42,346 nt of DNA. It comes from Candidatus Pacearchaeota archaeon (GTDB taxonomy: Archaea; Nanobdellota; Nanobdellia; Pacearchaeales; GW2011-AR1). The DNA is taken from positions 1 through 42,346 of the forward strand of contig JAFCDA010000003.1 of NCBI GenBank assembly GCA_017609915.1, given 5' to 3'. Positions 8,889 to 42,346 of the stretch are shown here, one piece after another. Below the pieces are notes generated by a model. The model was not told where the DNA came from. It did no database searches and saw only the letters and a program-made list of their open reading frames with translations. How positions within the stretch are numbered: position 1 is the stretch's first letter; each line of letters opens with the position of its first letter. Made by a program: the position numbers and the translations under genes.

Positions 8889-8995
8889 TAATATCTCTAT
8901 AAATCTTTAAGTTCTGTTATGAGTGGCAAAGGCACATCCCTTCCGTAACCCTCTCTTCTCATCTGCATCCCTATGCTTATAAGATACTGATATTT
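8889..8995 (-). repeat. Dispersed intergenic element F (GGCACAT subtype)
   Basis: AATATCTCTATAAATCTTTAAGTTCTGTTATGAGTGGCAAAGGCACATCCCTTCCGTAACCCTCTCTTCTCATCTGCATCCCTATGCTTATAAGATACTGATATT. Confidence 0.8.
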
Positions 8996-21674: not shown

Positions 21675-23486
21675 ATGGCTGATGAAAATCAAAAACAAGA
21701 TACTGGAATGAGTTTAGATGCCCAAAAATATCAGACAGAAGATATGACTTCAGGGCAAGTAAAAGTTCCTACTCAGGCTTCTGCAAAAGATGAAAAAGAA
21801 ATGAAGAAGATGAGAGAAAAACTTGAAAATTTGAAAAAATTTATTATAAATAAATATAAATTTACAAAAGCCATTGGAATTATTCCTCCTCAAGCAGCTG
21901 AAATATTTGATGAAGAAAATGAATTAAGTGAAGAGGAAAAAAAGCAAAAACCAATGCATTTGGTTGTTATTCTTCCTGATGATAAAGAAAAACAATTTAA
22001 TGAAATAAAAGGGATTCTTATTAAAAAAATTCAAGATGCAAAACAAAAGATTTGGTTGAATTTATTTTTAGAAAAAGATTTGTGGGAGATGTGCATAGAT
22101 AGTAAGTATAGTATTGTAGAAGCTATTGGAATGAGCTTTCCTTTACATGATAAAGGGCTTTTAGGCTCTTTAAGAGTAGCAGAAATTCACAAGTCATTAG
22201 TTTTAAGAAAATTTGAAAAATATATTTATTCATATGTTATATGGGGGAGTTTAGTAAGAGGAGATGCAGTTAAAACAAGTGATGTTGATGTGGCGATTAT
22301 AATTGATGATACTGATGTTAAAAGAATGCCTCGTATTGAATTAAAAGAAAAATTAAGAAATATTATTTATTCTTATATTATGCAAGCAGGAGAACTTGCT
22401 GGTGTTAAGAACATATTAAATGTTCAAGTATGGTTATTAACAGAGTTTTGGGAAGGAATTAAAGATGCTAATCCTGTATTTTATGGTTCTTTAAGAGATG
22501 GTGTTCCATTATATGATAGGGGAGGATTTTTACCATGGAAATTATTATTAAAAATGGGAAAAATTAAACCATCTCCTGAGGCTATTGATGGTTATATGAG
22601 TGTTGGAGAGAAAACACAAGAAATAGCTAAAAGAAAATTATTAGATATTGTAATGAGTGATATTTTTTATGGAGTTTCTATGCCTACTCAGGGGATTTTA
22701 ATGCTATATGGATTACCTCCTACAAATATTCCAGAAACTGTTAAGGAGTTTAAAAGAATTTTTGTTGACAAAGAAAAATTAGTTGAGAAAAAATATGCAG
22801 ATATTTTAGAAGAAATTATGATTACATATTATAAAGGATATGAACATGAAAAGATCAAAGAAGTTTCTGGGAAAGATATTGATAAATTATTAAAAAATTC
22901 TGAAGCATATTTGAAAAGACTAAAAGAATTAAGAATTGAAATTGAAAAAACAATGGTTAAGAAAACTTTTTCAGAGATTTATACTAATGTGTTTAAGATT
23001 ATGAAAGCTTTGTTTGGAAATAAATCAGAAATCCAATTAATTAAGCAATATGAAAAAGAGATTGTAAATAAAGGGCAAGGAAATCCTAAATTCTTACATA
23101 CCTTAAATGAATTAATTAGTGTGAAAAAGAAATATAAAAGTAAAAAAGCCCCAAGTGCTTATGTTTTTGAAACATTAAGAAAAGAATGTATTTATTTGAT
23201 TGATAGTTTAGTTGAGTATGGGCAAAGAAAAGATTTGGGTTTGATTGAAAGAGCAAAAGTTGTTTTAACATTTAAAGGAAAACATGCTGAATTGTTTTTA
23301 ACAAAACCGGCGTTTTTAATTCAAGAAAATAAAATAAGAAAAATTGAAGGGGAAAAGATTAAAGCTTCTGATATGAATGAGTTTAATCAGATTATAAGTA
23401 AGTTTAAAGGAAAAAGAATTAAGATTGATAATAAAATGTTAGAAGTTTTAGAAAAAGAGTTTGGAGAGTTTGATGTTAATTTGTAA
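21675..23486 (+). CDS. MNT-type nucleotidyltransferase with helical (HEPN-like) module and C-terminal extension (603 aa)
   Basis: YVIWGSLVRGDAVKTSDVDVAIIIDDTDV = GS..RG..x(n)SDVDV; paralogous to 36563-37519. Confidence 0.75.
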   Translation: MADENQKQDTGMSLDAQKYQTEDMTSGQVKVPTQASAKDEKEMKKMREKLENLKKFIINKYKFTKAIGIIPPQAAEIFDEENELSEEEKKQKPMHLVVILPDDKEKQFNEIKGILIKKIQDAKQKIWLNLFLEKDLWEMCIDSKYSIVEAIGMSFPLHDKGLLGSLRVAEIHKSLVLRKFEKYIYSYVIWGSLVRGDAVKTSDVDVAIIIDDTDVKRMPRIELKEKLRNIIYSYIMQAGELAGVKNILNVQVWLLTEFWEGIKDANPVFYGSLRDGVPLYDRGGFLPWKLLLKMGKIKPSPEAIDGYMSVGEKTQEIAKRKLLDIVMSDIFYGVSMPTQGILMLYGLPPTNIPETVKEFKRIFVDKEKLVEKKYADILEEIMITYYKGYEHEKIKEVSGKDIDKLLKNSEAYLKRLKELRIEIEKTMVKKTFSEIYTNVFKIMKALFGNKSEIQLIKQYEKEIVNKGQGNPKFLHTLNELISVKKKYKSKKAPSAYVFETLRKECIYLIDSLVEYGQRKDLGLIERAKVVLTFKGKHAELFLTKPAFLIQENKIRKIEGEKIKASDMNEFNQIISKFKGKRIKIDNKMLEVLEKEFGEFDVNL

Positions 23487-35423: not shown

Positions 35424-35537
35424 ATGGAAGATTTTGGCAATATTTTTCAAGCAAATGAAAGAATTCTTAAAGATTATGAAATATCTGATTCTGAAGATGA
35501 AGAAGGCGACTTAGAGGATAGAGAAGAAGATGAATAG
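35424..35537 (+). CDS. Very small acidic protein (37 aa), not in supplied track
   Basis: MEDFGNIFQANERILKDYEISDSEDEEGDLEDREEDE*. Confidence 0.35.
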   Translation: MEDFGNIFQANERILKDYEISDSEDEEGDLEDREEDE

Positions 35538-35632
35538 AGCCTTAATTACTTACTTCTTTATTTGTCGCCACTACACAATAACACCATAATGCAAGGGTTT
35601 ATAAATGGGTTTTATGTTGGAATATTAAGAAA

Positions 35633-36424
35633 ATGGTTACAACATATGAAGAAATAAACGGAAAATTAGATGTTTATCAACCTTACTTTGAAGCTCATGA
35701 AGAAGCTAAAAAGAATCGTGTAAATGATAGAACAAGACAATTAACTGCTTTCTTAACTAATGATAGATATCAACAAGAATTTTTTATGGATTATAATAGA
35801 TCAAAACCTGTTGATTTTAGAGCTCCATTAAAAGAAAAAACAAAGATAGAAAAGGAATCATTAGATGATTATATTTCACATAATCCTGTAAACTTTATTC
35901 TTAGAGAAGCTCCTGAACAAGATTTAATAAGTAATGGCCGTTTTATTCCTGGATTAAATTCACTTATAGAAGTTATCAGACCTATAACTAATTGTACAGG
36001 GGATGATGCAGATATACACAATAGGATAAGTCGTTTAAGACAAACAAAAGATACTATGGCAAAGACTATTAAAAAAAGAGATATTGGGCAAATGAAGGCA
36101 TATACCTCTACATTTTATGAGAATTATTTAAATGAACCTGCAAATAATGTATCAGAAGAAGAAAAAAGAATTACAAAAGCTGTAATAGATGCAAGTCCAA
36201 ATTTTGTTCCTGAATTTTATGGTAAAAGAAGTGAGGAAGTTTCATATGGTCTTGCTGTAGAATTAGAAGGAAAAAAGCCAGATTATTTAACAGCTATGAT
36301 TGCAAATAAATATAGAGATGCAGATGGTAATAACCTACCAATTCAAGATAATTTTACAAAATTTATGGTTAAATATAAAACTAAAGCACAAAAAGAAGCA
36401 GAAAGAGAAGACCCTTATATTTAA
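35633..36424 (+). CDS. Hypothetical protein (263 aa)
   Basis: Intact ORF, no family recognised. Confidence 0.65.
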   Translation: MVTTYEEINGKLDVYQPYFEAHEEAKKNRVNDRTRQLTAFLTNDRYQQEFFMDYNRSKPVDFRAPLKEKTKIEKESLDDYISHNPVNFILREAPEQDLISNGRFIPGLNSLIEVIRPITNCTGDDADIHNRISRLRQTKDTMAKTIKKRDIGQMKAYTSTFYENYLNEPANNVSEEEKRITKAVIDASPNFVPEFYGKRSEEVSYGLAVELEGKKPDYLTAMIANKYRDADGNNLPIQDNFTKFMVKYKTKAQKEAEREDPYI

Positions 36425-36458
36425 TTAGATTTTTAATTTATTTCTTAATTTTATTTTT

Positions 36459-36548
36459 GGTATCTCTATAAATCTTAAGTTTTGAAGAAGAGTGTAACTT
36501 AAACATATCATCTGTATCTCTCTCCATACATATAAAATATTGATATTT
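36459..36548. repeat. Dispersed intergenic element P (end-associated type)
   Basis: GTATCTCTATAAATCTTAAGTTTTGAAGAAGAGTGTAAC...CATCTGTATCTCTCTCCATACATATAAAATATTGATATT. Confidence 0.65.
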
Positions 36549-36562
36549 TTAGTTTTATAGAA

Positions 36563-37519
36563 TTATTGTATAATATTATCAATTAGCTTTAAAACTACTT
36601 TAAAGAAGTTTTCTGCTTTTTGCTGCCAAACATCAATAACATCTCCATCAAGATTCTTTATTTCTCCATGGGTTATGCTTTTGTGTAATTTATGTAACTC
36701 ACTTAAATCTGTAACATATCTCATTTTTAAAAGTCTTTTATCTACAAAATGTTGTTTTAATAAGATAGCTATGTGTTCTGGGCTTGGTGGAAGAACTTTT
36801 ACAGCCATTAATAATGCTTGTGCAGAATCTACCATTGCCCAATAACATCCTTCTATTGCTCCAATTTCTGCTAATCTGCTCCTTATAATATGTCCAGTAA
36901 CTCTGTTTAAACAAGTAAAAGTTGCTTCAGGAGTTGACTTAATTTTTCCTTCTTGTAAAAGTATTTTAAGAGGTTTGAAAAACCCTCCAAAATCTATAAG
37001 TGTTTCTCCATATCTTATTATATTAATTACTGTTGGGTCTCCTCTTGTTAAATCTTGCCACCAAGTTGTTAATTTAACTGTATTAATATGCAAATCTTTT
37101 TTATATGGATTTGATTGTACTAATTTTCCTAATTCTTCCCTATACCACGCAATTAATGTTTCATCAAAATTTACTGTTGCATCATCTACAATTAAAACAA
37201 TATCAATGTCAGAACTAAGTATACTCTGTCCTTTTGTTTGACTTCCAAACAAAACAATAGATTTAATTAATTTATCAAATCTTTGATAAGCCTTTTCTGC
37301 AAAATCCATTGCAATATCTCTTTCTGATTTAAGTTTTAATGAAGGAACATTTTTTGTACTAGTTTTTGGGGTTGTTTTTTTATGAGTTTTAATTTGTTTT
37401 TTTCTTGGTTTTTTATGAGTTTTTGATTTTTCTAAACTCTTTATGATTTTACGCCCTATAGTCTTATGAGCTTTAGATTTCTTACTATGTTCTTCTTTAG
37501 AAGTTTTTTCTTTTTCCAT
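36563..37519 (-). CDS. MNT-type nucleotidyltransferase with Lys-rich N-terminal tail
   Basis: SIVLFGSQTKGQSILSSDIDIVLIVDD; GGFFKPLKILLQEGKIKSTPEA aligns with GGFLPWKLLLKMGKIKPSPEA of 21675-23486. Confidence 0.75.
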   Translation of the reverse strand: MEKEKTSKEEHSKKSKAHKTIGRKIIKSLEKSKTHKKPRKKQIKTHKKTTPKTSTKNVPSLKLKSERDIAMDFAEKAYQRFDKLIKSIVLFGSQTKGQSILSSDIDIVLIVDDATVNFDETLIAWYREELGKLVQSNPYKKDLHINTVKLTTWWQDLTRGDPTVINIIRYGETLIDFGGFFKPLKILLQEGKIKSTPEATFTCLNRVTGHIIRSRLAEIGAIEGCYWAMVDSAQALLMAVKVLPPSPEHIAILLKQHFVDKRLLKMRYVTDLSELHKLHKSITHGEIKNLDGDVIDVWQQKAENFFKVVLKLIDNIIQ

Positions 37520-37544
37520 TTTCCTCTTTTTTGTATTTTATTTA

Positions 37545-37656
37545 TTAATATTTCTATAAATCTTAAGTTTTATTATGGGTGGCAAGGGCACATGGCTTCT
37601 GTAACCCTCTCTTCTCATCTACACATCTTTCTATGCTTATAAGATACCAATATTTT
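37545..37656 (-). repeat. Dispersed intergenic element Q (GGCACAT subtype)
   Basis: AATATTTCTATAAATCTTAAGTTTTATTATGGGTGGCAAGGGCACATGGCTTCTGTAACCCTCTCTTCTCATCTACACATCTTTCTATGCTTATAAGATACCAATATT. Confidence 0.8.
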
Positions 37657-37728
37657 CTTATTTATATTAATAAGTTTTAATTTTTAAATCTACGCTTTTT
37701 GATTAAATCTTTTTCTAAAAGATTTAGA

Positions 37729-39537
37729 TTATTGATTGGGTGTTCCTGAAAATCTGCTTTGGTCTCCTCCTGTTGGGCCACCTAACTCAGCTGGAAGAGT
37801 TGTAAATCCAGCTTGGAAAACTGAATGATGTATTGCAGGATTAACTGTTCCATGTCCTGAATAATATGTTCCAAGTCCAGATGTTGTATTCCAAGAGGGT
37901 CCTGCTTTCATTGCATAAGCTGGAGAATCAAAAGCCTGAATTGTTGGTTTAAATGGATTTCCTCCTCCTTTTTCTGAAAAATGCTGCCACCAATTTCCTG
38001 CTTCAATAATCTTTTTTCCTTCAAATCCTTTTTCACCTAATTTCTCCATCATTTCCTTAATAGGAACATTTCCCATACCCATTGGAAGTTCAGTATGTTC
38101 AAAACCAAAATTATCTGAAAGATGAACATGTTTTACAAAAGGAGCAATTATTTCTGTTTGTTTAATAATATCTTCTTCAGTATATCCACTTTTTCTCAAC
38201 ATATTTATATGTCCAACATCCCAAGTAGCACCAATCATTTGTTCAGAAATTCTTTTTGCTTCTGATTTTCCTATACCTTTATTTTTTCTTAGATTTTCAG
38301 CCAGTTTTTTTCTAGATTCTTCAATAAGATCTTTTAAATCTTCTGCTTTACTTAATCCTCCTCCTGCAGGAGGATTTTCAATATTTAACATTGGAGCTGT
38401 TTTTCCAAATTTATTATAAGCAGTTTCTGCCACATTTGCAAAAGTTTGTGAAGATTTATCTATAATAAAATCATTTAATGGCATAAACATTTTAGGACTT
38501 ATTTCTGTTAATGTTTTAAGCCCTTTTTCAACTATTTCTGCAAATTGACTTATTTTTTCAGGATTGTTCTCCATTCCCTCTTGTATATGAGGACTTACTT
38601 CTTTTGCAAACTTATCTAATTTTTTCCTATCTTCATCAGAAGCATTTTCATAAGCCATATCAAATAAGGTTCTCATATTTCTATAAGAATCTCTGAGATA
38701 TATTTGCCCATGATTTAATACTCTTTGAATTTCTTTAGTATGTTTTTTTACTAAGGGGTCTTCAATTTGTTCAATATTTGCATTTTGAATTTCTTTTAAT
38801 GCTTCATTAAATGCTTGTTTTCCCATCCCATTTTTAGTTTCTACTAATCTACTGACTATATCTTCTCCATAATTTGCTTGCCTATTTACATCAGATAATT
38901 GATTTACCCACATATCTTTGTTGAATTTTTCTAATTCTTTTTCAGGCTCAAAAGGTCTTTCTTTTTCAGGCTCAAATTTGCCTTTTTCTGGGAAATATCT
39001 TTTTTCAGGACGAATTACATTATATTTTCCTGTTCTTGGGTCAACAATCCAAAAAGTTGTTATTTTTTTATCTTTTCCTGTCCCAGTAGTTGGAATCATT
39101 TCAGGAAGTTGTGCTGTAGAATGGGTTGTTACAGAAATATTTCCTTTTGGATCTAATGCATGACTTCTTAATACAGCAGAAGTTAATTGTTTTTCAGCAC
39201 CTACCCTATTTGCTTCATTCCATCCATCTTGCCCAATTCCAGAAGCTTCTACTACAGGTATATGAACAGAAGGACTAACTCCTGTTAATTTTGTTAATCT
39301 TTCCATTTCTTTTAAATGATGCTCTGGGATAGATTCCCATACACTAGGGTCGACCCCTGTAACTTCTGCTACTTTTGTTCCAGGATTTATTTTTGTATTA
39401 AGTTCTCCTAATTGATTTGCAGTTCTAACATCAAGAGTTGTTCCAAAATCTTTTGTTTCTATTTGATATCCAATAGAGGTATAACTAGGTACTAAAAAAT
39501 CATCTGCTCCTGGATAAATTGTTTCATAAGTGGTCAT
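37729..39537 (-). CDS. Xylose isomerase/AP-endonuclease-family-2-like TIM-barrel protein with long N-terminal region (602 aa)
   Basis: IGATWDVGHINMLRKSGYTEEDIIKQTEIIAPFVKHVHLSDNFGFEHTELPMGMGNVPIKEMMEKLGEKGFEGKKIIEAGN. Confidence 0.7.
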   Translation of the reverse strand: MTTYETIYPGADDFLVPSYTSIGYQIETKDFGTTLDVRTANQLGELNTKINPGTKVAEVTGVDPSVWESIPEHHLKEMERLTKLTGVSPSVHIPVVEASGIGQDGWNEANRVGAEKQLTSAVLRSHALDPKGNISVTTHSTAQLPEMIPTTGTGKDKKITTFWIVDPRTGKYNVIRPEKRYFPEKGKFEPEKERPFEPEKELEKFNKDMWVNQLSDVNRQANYGEDIVSRLVETKNGMGKQAFNEALKEIQNANIEQIEDPLVKKHTKEIQRVLNHGQIYLRDSYRNMRTLFDMAYENASDEDRKKLDKFAKEVSPHIQEGMENNPEKISQFAEIVEKGLKTLTEISPKMFMPLNDFIIDKSSQTFANVAETAYNKFGKTAPMLNIENPPAGGGLSKAEDLKDLIEESRKKLAENLRKNKGIGKSEAKRISEQMIGATWDVGHINMLRKSGYTEEDIIKQTEIIAPFVKHVHLSDNFGFEHTELPMGMGNVPIKEMMEKLGEKGFEGKKIIEAGNWWQHFSEKGGGNPFKPTIQAFDSPAYAMKAGPSWNTTSGLGTYYSGHGTVNPAIHHSVFQAGFTTLPAELGGPTGGDQSRFSGTPNQ

Positions 39538-39558
39538 TTTGTTTTAATATTATTTTTT

Positions 39559-39676
39559 ATTAATATCTTATTGCATCTTTAAGTTTGATTATCTAAATAG
39601 CTAGCAAGGGCACATGGCTTCTGTAACCTTATTCCTCATCTGTATGTCTTTCTATGCTTATAAGATACTGATGTTT
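39559..39676 (-). repeat. Dispersed intergenic element R (GGCACAT subtype)
   Basis: TAATATCTTATTGCATCTTTAAGTTTGATTATCTAAATAGCTAGCAAGGGCACATGGCTTCTGTAACCTTATTCCTCATCTGTATGTCTTTCTATGCTTATAAGATACTGATGTT. Confidence 0.75.
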
Positions 39677-39685
39677 TCCTCTTTT

Positions 39686-40219
39686 TTAAAATCTTCTTCT
39701 ATCTTTTTTATTTTGTTCAAAATCTGATTGATATTTTTTTTCTTGTGGTTTAATTTGTTCTAGTTCACCAGATATATCTCTTTGTTGTATTGTTCCTGGA
39801 AGAGTGCTAAATTGAGATTGTAAAAGGTGTTGAGGTAAAGAAGGTGAAAAACTTTGAGAACTTGTATGTATTTGTTCTGGATATCCTGCTTCTGTTTGAC
39901 TTCTTCCTTCTTGTCTTGTTGGTTCTTGATAAGTAATTGAAGAATATTCTGGAGCATTTTCAGCTATTTGTGGTTCTTGAGTTGGTGTTGGAGTTTGTAT
40001 ATCTTGTAATCCTGTTTCTAAGGGTTCTTGAGGTTGTGAGAATTCAGGAGTTATTGAAGGACCAGAACTTGGCCAACGATTAGTTGCTGTTGATCTTGGA
40101 TAACTTGCTGCAGGAGTTTCTTGAATAATTTCTTCTAAAGGTTCAAAATCTTCTTCAGACCCATCTACATCTTCCTCTTCTTCAAGTTCTTCTAAATCTT
40201 CTTCATCCCAATCTTCCAT
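39686..40219 (-). CDS. Intrinsically disordered acidic/Pro-Gln-rich protein (177 aa)
   Basis: MEDWDEEDLEELEEEEDVDGSEEDFEPLEEI then P/Q/S/T-rich body. Confidence 0.6.
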   Translation of the reverse strand: MEDWDEEDLEELEEEEDVDGSEEDFEPLEEIIQETPAASYPRSTATNRWPSSGPSITPEFSQPQEPLETGLQDIQTPTPTQEPQIAENAPEYSSITYQEPTRQEGRSQTEAGYPEQIHTSSQSFSPSLPQHLLQSQFSTLPGTIQQRDISGELEQIKPQEKKYQSDFEQNKKDRRRF

Positions 40220-40231
40220 TTTGTTTTTTCC

Positions 40232-40330
40232 TTATCTAAATCTTATAAGCTCATAAAAGTCTTATAGATGAGATGTATAGCTTAATCTCTTCTTCACATA
40301 CCCTTCTATGCTTACAAGCTATCAATTTCT
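40232..40330 (-). repeat. Dispersed intergenic element S
   Basis: TTATCTAAATCTTATAAGCTC...ATAGATGAGATGTATAGCTTAATCTCTTCTTCACATACCCTTCTATGCTTACAAGCTATCAATTT. Confidence 0.65.
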
Positions 40331-40361
40331 ATTAATTATTCTAAGAAAAAAGATTATTTAA

Positions 40362-41876
40362 TTATTTGGGTTTTCCAAATCCAAATACTTTTTCAGCTTC
40401 TGTTCTTGGAGGTTCTGCTTGAACATCATCAGTATATGGGAATGAAGCCATACCATGTGCTTTTTTATAAACATCAAAAATAAGAAAACAATTATTAATT
40501 GCACTTGCTTCTGCTAGATTCCTAATATAAGATTCTACATATTTATCTGGTTTAGCTCCTTTTTCCTTTAATTTTTTTAATTTTTCTTCGCCCTCTTTTT
40601 TTGATTTTTCTTCAGGAACTAATTTGTTGCCTTTTCTAACAAAAGAAAATAAAGCACCAAAAGGATTGATATCTTCACTTGATTTTTTATCTTCTTCTTT
40701 TTTATCTTCTGTAAATTCTTCTATATCTAATTTTAATTGACCTAAAGAATCATCAGTCATTCCTTGAACTAATTTTAATGAATCTTCTAAGTCAGATTCT
40801 GATAATTTATCTTTTAAAAGAACTAATTCATCTTCATTTAATACATAAGCTTTAAATTCTACATCTACTTTTCCCCCAAAAACATAATGAGATTGTTGTG
40901 CAGCTCTACTAGGTATTCCTCTAAAAGTAAAATCAATAAAAACAATTGAATAATACTTTCTTATTCCTTTTATTTTTTTAAAATCTTTTGGTAAATGGTC
41001 ATCTATAATTTCTTGTTCAACATTAACTGATTTTTTCCCCATTAAGACTAAATTTAATAAAAGAGTATTAAACACATTAACTAATTCTGGTTTTGTTCCT
41101 AGTTCATCTTTCATTGATAATTGTTGGGCTGCTTTAAGATAAGGTTTTGCCCATTTTGCATTTAATTTTAAACCAGCTATTTGGCTTTTAAGATATGTTT
41201 TTTCAATTTCAAATCTTCTTTTTAGTTCTTCTTCACTTCTTTTTCTCCATTCATTAAATTCTTGTATTCTTGGTTTTAAGATTCTTATAACCCGATCATT
41301 TAAATCTAGTTTATCTACTTCTTCTGCATTTTTTACTATCATAAATCCGTCTCTTAATGTTACAAATTGTAAGTTTCCACTAGCCATAGCATTTATACTT
41401 CCTGCTCCTCTTTGTATATCTACTTTATCCATCCAAATTTGCTTTAAAGATAATAATCCTGCTTCTGCTTTATTTTTCTCTTTAGATCTTGTTTGTTCAT
41501 AATGACTTAATCTTATTTTAAATTCTTTTAAATCATAAATCAATTGAATAATTCCTTTTAACATTGTACTAACAGTTCCTAATACTCTTGAAGCTTCTTG
41601 CTGCATTTGACTTGCTTTTCCTTGCAATTCTGAAAAATGCCCTGAACCAGGAGATGATGCAAAATTATCTACAATCTTTTCTATATCTCCACCAAAAATT
41701 CCACCCATAAAATCTAAAATCCAGAAATAAACTGGTTCAAGAGTTTCTGTTGTTGAATTATAAACAAGTTTGTGTTCTGAAGAAGCAATAGTTATATTTA
41801 CTCCTTTTTCTTTTTTCTTTTTTCTTTTTTCATAATAAGAACTTATTTCTGCAATTATATTATCTATTTCTGACAT
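40362..41876 (-). CDS. Hypothetical protein (504 aa), largely helical/coiled
   Basis: Intact ORF; coil-rich middle, charged linker, no family recognised. Confidence 0.65.
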   Translation of the reverse strand: MSEIDNIIAEISSYYEKRKKKKEKGVNITIASSEHKLVYNSTTETLEPVYFWILDFMGGIFGGDIEKIVDNFASSPGSGHFSELQGKASQMQQEASRVLGTVSTMLKGIIQLIYDLKEFKIRLSHYEQTRSKEKNKAEAGLLSLKQIWMDKVDIQRGAGSINAMASGNLQFVTLRDGFMIVKNAEEVDKLDLNDRVIRILKPRIQEFNEWRKRSEEELKRRFEIEKTYLKSQIAGLKLNAKWAKPYLKAAQQLSMKDELGTKPELVNVFNTLLLNLVLMGKKSVNVEQEIIDDHLPKDFKKIKGIRKYYSIVFIDFTFRGIPSRAAQQSHYVFGGKVDVEFKAYVLNEDELVLLKDKLSESDLEDSLKLVQGMTDDSLGQLKLDIEEFTEDKKEEDKKSSEDINPFGALFSFVRKGNKLVPEEKSKKEGEEKLKKLKEKGAKPDKYVESYIRNLAEASAINNCFLIFDVYKKAHGMASFPYTDDVQAEPPRTEAEKVFGFGKPK

Positions 41877-41899
41877 TTTTTACTCCTTTTGTTTTATAT

Positions 41900-41997
41900 T
41901 TTATCTATATTTTTACAAGCTCAATAGATTTTTATTATCTGAGTAGCTTAATCTTCTCATCTTCATCTCTTTATTCTTTATAAGATGCCGATATTAA
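41900..41997 (-). repeat. Dispersed intergenic element T
   Basis: TTATCTATATTTTTACAAGCTC...TTATTATCTGAGTAGCTTAATCTTCTCATCTTCATCTCTTTATTCTTTATAAGATGCCGATATTAA. Confidence 0.7.
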
Positions 41998-42025
41998 TAA
42001 GATTACCCTATTTTTAAAATTGTTG

Positions 42026-42328
42026 TTATGCTTTCTTTATGAAATCCATCATACTTTTTCTGTCAAATTTGATTATGTTCCCTGTATCACAATTTACTAA
42101 AATATTTAGAATAATTAATCCTTCTAACATACAAGTTAGATTCCAAACTTGTTGATTGTCATGTATTTGAAGAACTGCAATTATTTTATGAAATCTTGAT
42201 TTAATATTATTTTCAAGAGCTTGTTTTTCTGCTATTGCTCTTAATTCTTCAACTTCTGTTTTTGTATATGGTTGAATTTTTTGTAGTTCTGGTAGATTTG
42301 GGTCATTAATTAGTTTATCTTGTTTCAT
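42026..42328 (-). CDS. Hypothetical protein (100 aa)
   Basis: Intact ORF near window edge. Confidence 0.55.
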   Translation of the reverse strand: MKQDKLINDPNLPELQKIQPYTKTEVEELRAIAEKQALENNIKSRFHKIIAVLQIHDNQQVWNLTCMLEGLIILNILVNCDTGNIIKFDRKSMMDFIKKA

Positions 42329-42346
42329 TATTACCTCATTATTTTT

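Follow-up and report, generated by a model that had tools for sequence, protein, structure and literature searches.

Positions 35,424 to 42,328 of a 42,346-nt contig from Candidatus Pacearchaeota archaeon (JAFCDA010000003.1) carry a run of genes, four of them consecutive on the minus strand and each preceded by a copy of a repeat. The 42,346-nt contig in its entirety (C9), hereafter the window, belongs to a genome of 521 kb that is 65% complete. Do these genes belong to an undescribed lineage-specific system, co-regulated through the repeats, as a first-pass annotation had proposed from the letters alone? We found all the open reading frames (ORFs) where that annotation had placed them, and its description of the genes as mostly unassigned holds: only two of the products match Pfam, while NCBIfam, PHROGs and PADLOC add generic or weak matches. 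A conserved unit does exist, but its composition differs from the one proposed, the core consisting only of the following four genes, which keep their order and strand and are referred to below as the cassette:

40362–41876, minus strand: core protein of 504 amino acids (aa), composed of helices and two long antiparallel strands, for which searches gave no known fold
39686–40219, minus strand: 177-aa acidic protein of disordered type, a putative adaptor, diverged in sequence with slot, composition and short motifs kept
37729–39537, minus strand: TIM-barrel protein of 602 aa (AP_endonuc_2/xylose-isomerase-like superfamily), with a helical insertion (about 145–355) and a tail (538–602)
36563–37519, minus strand: 318-aa minimal nucleotidyltransferase (MNT) with a helical, HEPN-like C-terminal half and a Lys-rich N-terminal extension

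The distribution of these families was assessed in 55 relatives and, by profile searches, in a broader sample of 237 genomes from 185 genera of the phylum Nanobdellota, all of a single class. The 504-aa and TIM-barrel families were each recovered from 49 of the 55 relatives, and from 224 and 218 of the phylum genomes, respectively; the MNT family was found in 236 of the 237, a count that takes in matches to a 603-aa paralogue in a few genomes. The cassette is, in conclusion, near-universal in Nanobdellota and not lineage-specific.

Gene order is kept to a similar extent. Taking the best places among the matches listed, and only pairs lying on one contig, 72 of 80 genomes have the TIM-barrel gene no more than 6 kb downstream of the 504-aa gene on the same strand, and in 82 of 86 the MNT gene follows the TIM-barrel gene. 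A locus-level count over 80 named loci, 76 of which are not cut off, gave a compatible picture, the TIM-barrel gene being found at most 3.3 kb from the 504-aa gene in 60 of the 76. Two closed genomes from another family (605,887 and 668,961 bp) have the 504-aa and TIM-barrel genes spaced by 24 and 22 nt, respectively, and followed by secY. The flanks of the cassette vary by group (Glx-tRNA synthetase, ABC transporter, signal peptidase II or secY) while the cassette persists, so that it is the cassette, rather than its surroundings, that appears as the conserved entity. Synteny in relatives, the absence of which the first-pass annotation would have taken as a refutation, was thus found by a wide margin. 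In one contig (loci L042/L064, G006:C4) the cassette is arranged in two divergent halves, the 504-aa gene with the next gene and the TIM-barrel gene with the MNT gene, which suggests two sub-units.

The TIM-barrel protein matches AP_endonuc_2 in Pfam (39.6 bits), and its AlphaFold model (pLDDT 83.1) shows a complete (βα)8 barrel, with strands at residues 31–34, 56–60, 88–92, 135–139, 383–387, 435–440, 468–473 and 508–511. The TIM barrel previously proposed is therefore borne out, but the roughly 300 extra N-terminal residues attributed to it are not an extension: they are filled by strands β1 to β4 (31–139) and by a helical insertion of about 215 residues (about 145–355), which splits the barrel between β4 and β5. 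The closest PDB structure identified by Foldseek is MJ1311 (3wqo; TMt 0.76), followed by ketose 3-epimerases (TMt about 0.7) and endonuclease IV (about 0.6).

Seven residues located at the strand ends, H92, H139, E387, D440, H443, H472 and E512, are invariant in all 61 members compared and in a further 10 of 10 distant members. By hhalign to Escherichia coli Nfo and canonical Pacearchaeota relatives (E=5.6e-5, probability 66%), the last five correspond to E145, D179, H182, H216 and E261 of Nfo, so that the ligands E, D-x-x-H, H and E of β5 to β8 are all present. H92 and H139, at the ends of β3 and β4, pair with MJ1311 in a weak alignment domain and may correspond to His69 and His109 of the trinuclear site of Nfo. 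At the position of Nfo Asp229-x-His231, some relatives have D-x-H; others, the window protein among them, have H-x-E. The four ligands of epimerase type are accompanied by two further invariant His residues, a pattern that suggests a site larger than the four-ligand Mn site of the epimerases.

The tail of the same protein (538–602) is disordered in the AlphaFold model, and yet it is conserved: LPxELGG is kept in 56 of 61 members and the C-terminal end is of the SGxPME type in 44 of 61. Being both disordered and conserved, the tail may have a docking role. In addition, peptides of the SGVPLE type often end the members of other families, and the extreme C-terminal SGxPME/SGVPLE-type peptide seems to resemble a docking or targeting peptide.

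As for the MNT protein, its Pfam match is NTP_transf_2 (26 bits), and the active-site motif GSx10DxD is intact and invariant in 58 of 58 members. The assignment as an MNT made in the first-pass annotation stands, whereas the Lys-rich stretch described there as a tail (residues about 35–52) belongs to the variable N-terminal extension and is not C-terminal. In the helical half, RX5H (R273/H279) occurs in 37 of 58 members; in the window protein Ser replaces the motif Arg at 273, a position that varies within the genus. We dropped an earlier reading of family-wide loss of the HEPN motif: no RX4-6H ending at H284 was found, but a full scan gave R273-x5-H279 in the 37 members, so that, besides the window copy, only some members from its genus are without the motif. 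None of 17 family members scanned gave a HEPN match in Pfam. In the closed genome of 605,887 bp (G151:C1:276943–277675, locus L181) the MNT appears as two slightly overlapping ORFs, a nucleotidyltransferase of 138 aa and a helical half of 147 aa.

The structure prediction of the 504-aa protein that had been called for was run, and no known fold was found. The AlphaFold model, built on 78 sequences (pLDDT 84.5, pTM 0.79), gave no match in PDB at E≤0.001, the best E being 0.054 and the TM of the leading matches staying under 0.2, nor any in BFVD at the same threshold; no Pfam family is common to the members of the family. Profile matches to YJU2 and to a sperm flagellar protein (E 0.01–0.06) look like chance similarity of coiled coils, and a viral origin was rejected, no relative being found in viral contigs or in BFVD. 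The slot between the 504-aa and TIM-barrel genes is usually occupied by an acidic protein of 145–244 aa and low hydrophobicity, D+E making up 15–29% in most loci. Its C-terminal motif, [LNDIM][PLM][FLW][EQNRT], is present in 25 of 57 proteins, compared to 2.4 in shuffles. In four loci (L082, L103, L113 and L129), where the 504–TIM gap is 44–163 nt, the slot gene is absent.

Our main reading, to which we assign a probability of about one half, is that the four minus-strand genes encode one undescribed cytoplasmic core unit or complex of Nanobdellota (Nanoarchaeota/Pacearchaeota/Woesearchaeota-type archaea), and we infer that the four proteins work together as a complex. In such an arrangement the 504-aa protein would be the scaffold, to which, or to a shared partner, the TIM barrel would dock via its LPxELGG...SGxPME tail, with the acidic protein as a flexible adaptor. 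With a metal cluster like that of endonuclease IV, the TIM barrel might then cleave or isomerise a substrate containing phosphate or sugar, and either its product or a partner protein might be nucleotidylated by the MNT. As to what the cassette is used for, the guess that we rank first, tentative as it is, is a housekeeping function in which nucleic-acid ends are processed or nucleic acid is checked for quality; sugar-phosphate, sugar or nucleotide-sugar metabolism ranks next and is a fainter prospect. Comparably speculative is the larger picture of a machine that is a signature of the phylum, in which a 504-aa scaffold of new fold would recruit an endonuclease IV-like metalloenzyme and an MNT via the C-terminal SGxPME peptide and the acidic adaptor, to carry out an essential task on nucleic acids or nucleotide sugars that is unparalleled elsewhere.

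Several observations weigh against a complex with nuclease-like chemistry. The closest structure, MJ1311, is itself uncharacterised and the majority of the Foldseek matches are ketose 3-epimerases, which leaves nuclease chemistry putative; the mapping of H92 and H139 combines a weak alignment with strand position. Moreover, the acidic gene is sometimes missing, the MNT gene is located elsewhere in several genomes and in G151 is apparently split into two ORFs. The 504-aa and TIM-barrel families are jointly absent in 8 genomes (p=4e-7), which may reflect contig gaps. In addition, the complex is deduced from sequence and models, and the gene order may reflect a shared housekeeping context instead. 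Pursuing this last point, the genes could be merely neighbouring housekeeping genes without joint function, whose order is kept by low rearrangement: the cassette is found beside secY, L10e/L35Ae or aminoacyl-tRNA synthetase genes, and it is broken in about one fifth of the loci, a figure that also counts against the complex. We regard this explanation as improbable, given that a three-gene order persists across distant families while the flanking genes change.

The structural neighbours of the TIM barrel lead to a further alternative, a sugar or sugar-nucleotide pathway in which the barrel would epimerise a ketose, as D-tagatose 3-epimerase does, and the MNT would nucleotidylate it, with the 504-aa protein as scaffold. 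Aminoglycoside-type nucleotidyltransferases act on sugars, the top neighbours are MJ1311 and D-tagatose/psicose 3-epimerases, and NCBIfam gives weak matches to 3-epimerases. This pathway is nevertheless doubtful: the invariant ligand set, with its extra His on β3 and β4, exceeds the four-ligand epimerase site, and the acidic adaptor, the large insertion and the docking tail are hard to explain in organisms with almost no metabolism. The MNT suggests instead a HEPN-MNT toxin-antitoxin (type VII-like) or defence module that has been domesticated, in which RNase activity would be under the control of the fused MNT-HEPN and the remaining genes would supply its effectors or targets. The intact MNT motif, the RX5H typical of HEPN RNases in a majority of members and weak PADLOC nucleotidyltransferase matches are in line with such a module, and a DPANN MNT-HEPN family has been called most probably a toxin-antitoxin (Makarova et al. 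2019, PMC6393860). The same paper, however, remarks on the unusual conservation and housekeeping context of that family, and in our data the distribution is near-universal and syntenic rather than patchy or mobile, no viral relative of the 504-aa protein was found, and the MNT members scanned lack a HEPN match. Because of this universality and of the motif Arg lost in this genome and variable in the genus, we consider a toxin-antitoxin decidedly unlikely.

The reading as a core unit can be set against known systems. The literature searched contains no description of the cassette, of the ligand set and tail of its TIM barrel or of the 504-aa fold, and the cassette is new in the limited sense that we found no characterised system of such composition. 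Endonuclease IV (Nfo) and other AP_endonuc_2 proteins share the TIM barrel with ligands at the ends of β3 to β8, but the cassette protein differs by its helical insertion and conserved disordered tail; most relatives also carry a separate AP_endonuc_2 protein of 257–325 aa. MJ1311, D-tagatose 3-epimerase-like, is closest in both fold and sequence and shares the HAP and VVHP motifs, but proteins of its type have 267–293 aa, without insertion or tail. Type VII HEPN-MNT toxin-antitoxins have GSx10DxD in common with the cassette MNT, and RX5H with many of its members, whereas in the cassette the MNT and HEPN parts are fused in one near-universal protein.

Among conserved DPANN families, cls.004259 (NEQ050) is described as "MNT fused to HEPN, typically in house-keeping context", and counted among the priority unknowns (Makarova et al. 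2019, PMC6393860); like the cassette MNT, it is conserved in DPANN and joins an MNT to a helical half of HEPN-like type. Either the cassette MNT or its 603-aa paralogue probably belongs to it, NEQ050 having been compared by description only; the source lists single families and no cassette with the 504-aa, acidic and TIM-barrel proteins. Module 98 (Castelle et al. 2021, PMC8204110) groups 51 families, for the most part unknown, that Pacearchaeota and Woesearchaeota widely share; it has the same distribution as the cassette families and is defined by presence or absence only, without gene order or mechanism. The cassette families may be among those of the cls.004259 list or of Module 98. Few families lacking an assigned function are known to be retained almost throughout an archaeal phylum with reduced genomes. 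With a core cassette that is syntenic, keeps its catalytic residues intact and occurs in closed genomes, the vague question of "dark matter" becomes one that can be tested.

The repeats call for a separate explanation. The following copies lie in the region:

41902–41993, minus strand: weak copy upstream of the 504-aa gene (E=3.1e-6)
40254–40322, minus strand: weak copy upstream of the acidic gene (E=4.6e-4)
39561–39673, minus strand: long-subtype copy with GGTTACAGAAG insert, upstream of the TIM-barrel gene (E=1.8e-13)
37546–37653, minus strand: long-subtype copy upstream of the MNT gene (E=1.4e-16)
36458–36546, minus strand: copy not associated with a start, between two convergent gene ends (E=7.3e-19, the best score of the genome)

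The four copies previously noticed before the genes starting at 37519, 39537, 40219 and 41876 are thus all real, although two are weak, and start association applies to them but not to the fifth, strong copy. With a profile grown from one copy, and gene context taken from 268 kb, about half of the window's own genome, we obtained 67 matches (64 non-overlapping), far above the chance number and none centred in a gene. Between same-strand genes, 42 of 43 copies are oriented with the genes (p=1e-11); 57 of 63 point into the next gene, with the 3' end at a median of 24 nt and a TATA-like motif at a median of 43 nt from the start codon. In the consensus, opposite ends carry TATCTTATAAGCATAG and CTTAAAGATTTATAGAGATA, with GATGAnAAGnTTAAG...CTCATC between them. 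A long subtype, with an extra conserved middle block of the AGGGTTACGGAAGCCATGTGCCCTTGCCAC type that could form a small hairpin, occurs at window positions 8890–8991, 37546–37653 and 39561–39673 and at L009:7153, L010:19168, L011:16292 and L023:785.

Do the repeats mark a co-regulated cluster, as had been suggested? We rejected this idea, since 116 copies are dispersed over the genome and the cassette is intact in relatives without the repeat. Two congeners have 32 and 7 copies; in the genus-level search only 3 of 17 genomes, including the window's own, carry the repeat, and most of the 14 in which none was detected keep the families. Being genome-wide and missing from most congeners, the repeat is best described as a young, dispersed, putative promoter-like element, separate from the conservation of the cassette and with no evidence of co-regulation special to it; it now stands before each cassette gene in this species by happenstance. 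Two other interpretations were discarded: a structured RNA or leader, no covariation or consensus structure being detected over 42 copies, and an operon-splitting insertion, tandem gaps being no larger than in congeners (median 60.5 versus 61.5 nt).

Elsewhere in the window, the 603-aa paralogue (21675–23486, plus strand) contains a second MNT domain with 31% identity over 244 aa to the cassette MNT. It lies near the genes for L35Ae (24907) and L10e (25515), has homologues of 578–611 aa in three closed genomes and could be the protein that actually corresponds to NEQ050. In the closed genome of 668,961 bp a free-standing pair of HEPN (121 aa) and MNT (115 aa) genes (L168:14118–14815) is located about 3 kb downstream of 504–TIM–secY.

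Three further genes had been counted in the cluster. A 37-aa acidic ORF has no support beyond being open, and the other two lie outside the core:

35633–36424, plus strand: 263-aa fast-evolving gene, convergent with the MNT gene
42026–42346, minus strand: 3' part of a gene whose 5' end lies beyond the contig end, kept upstream of the 504-aa gene in part of the genus

For the 263-aa gene, a neighbour rather than a member, iterated profile search recovered very diverged homologues at the equivalent convergent position from four congeners only. The gene at the contig end, previously taken for one of 100 aa, belongs to a longer gene, its product showing 78% identity to residues 63–168 of the 168-aa homologue of a congener.

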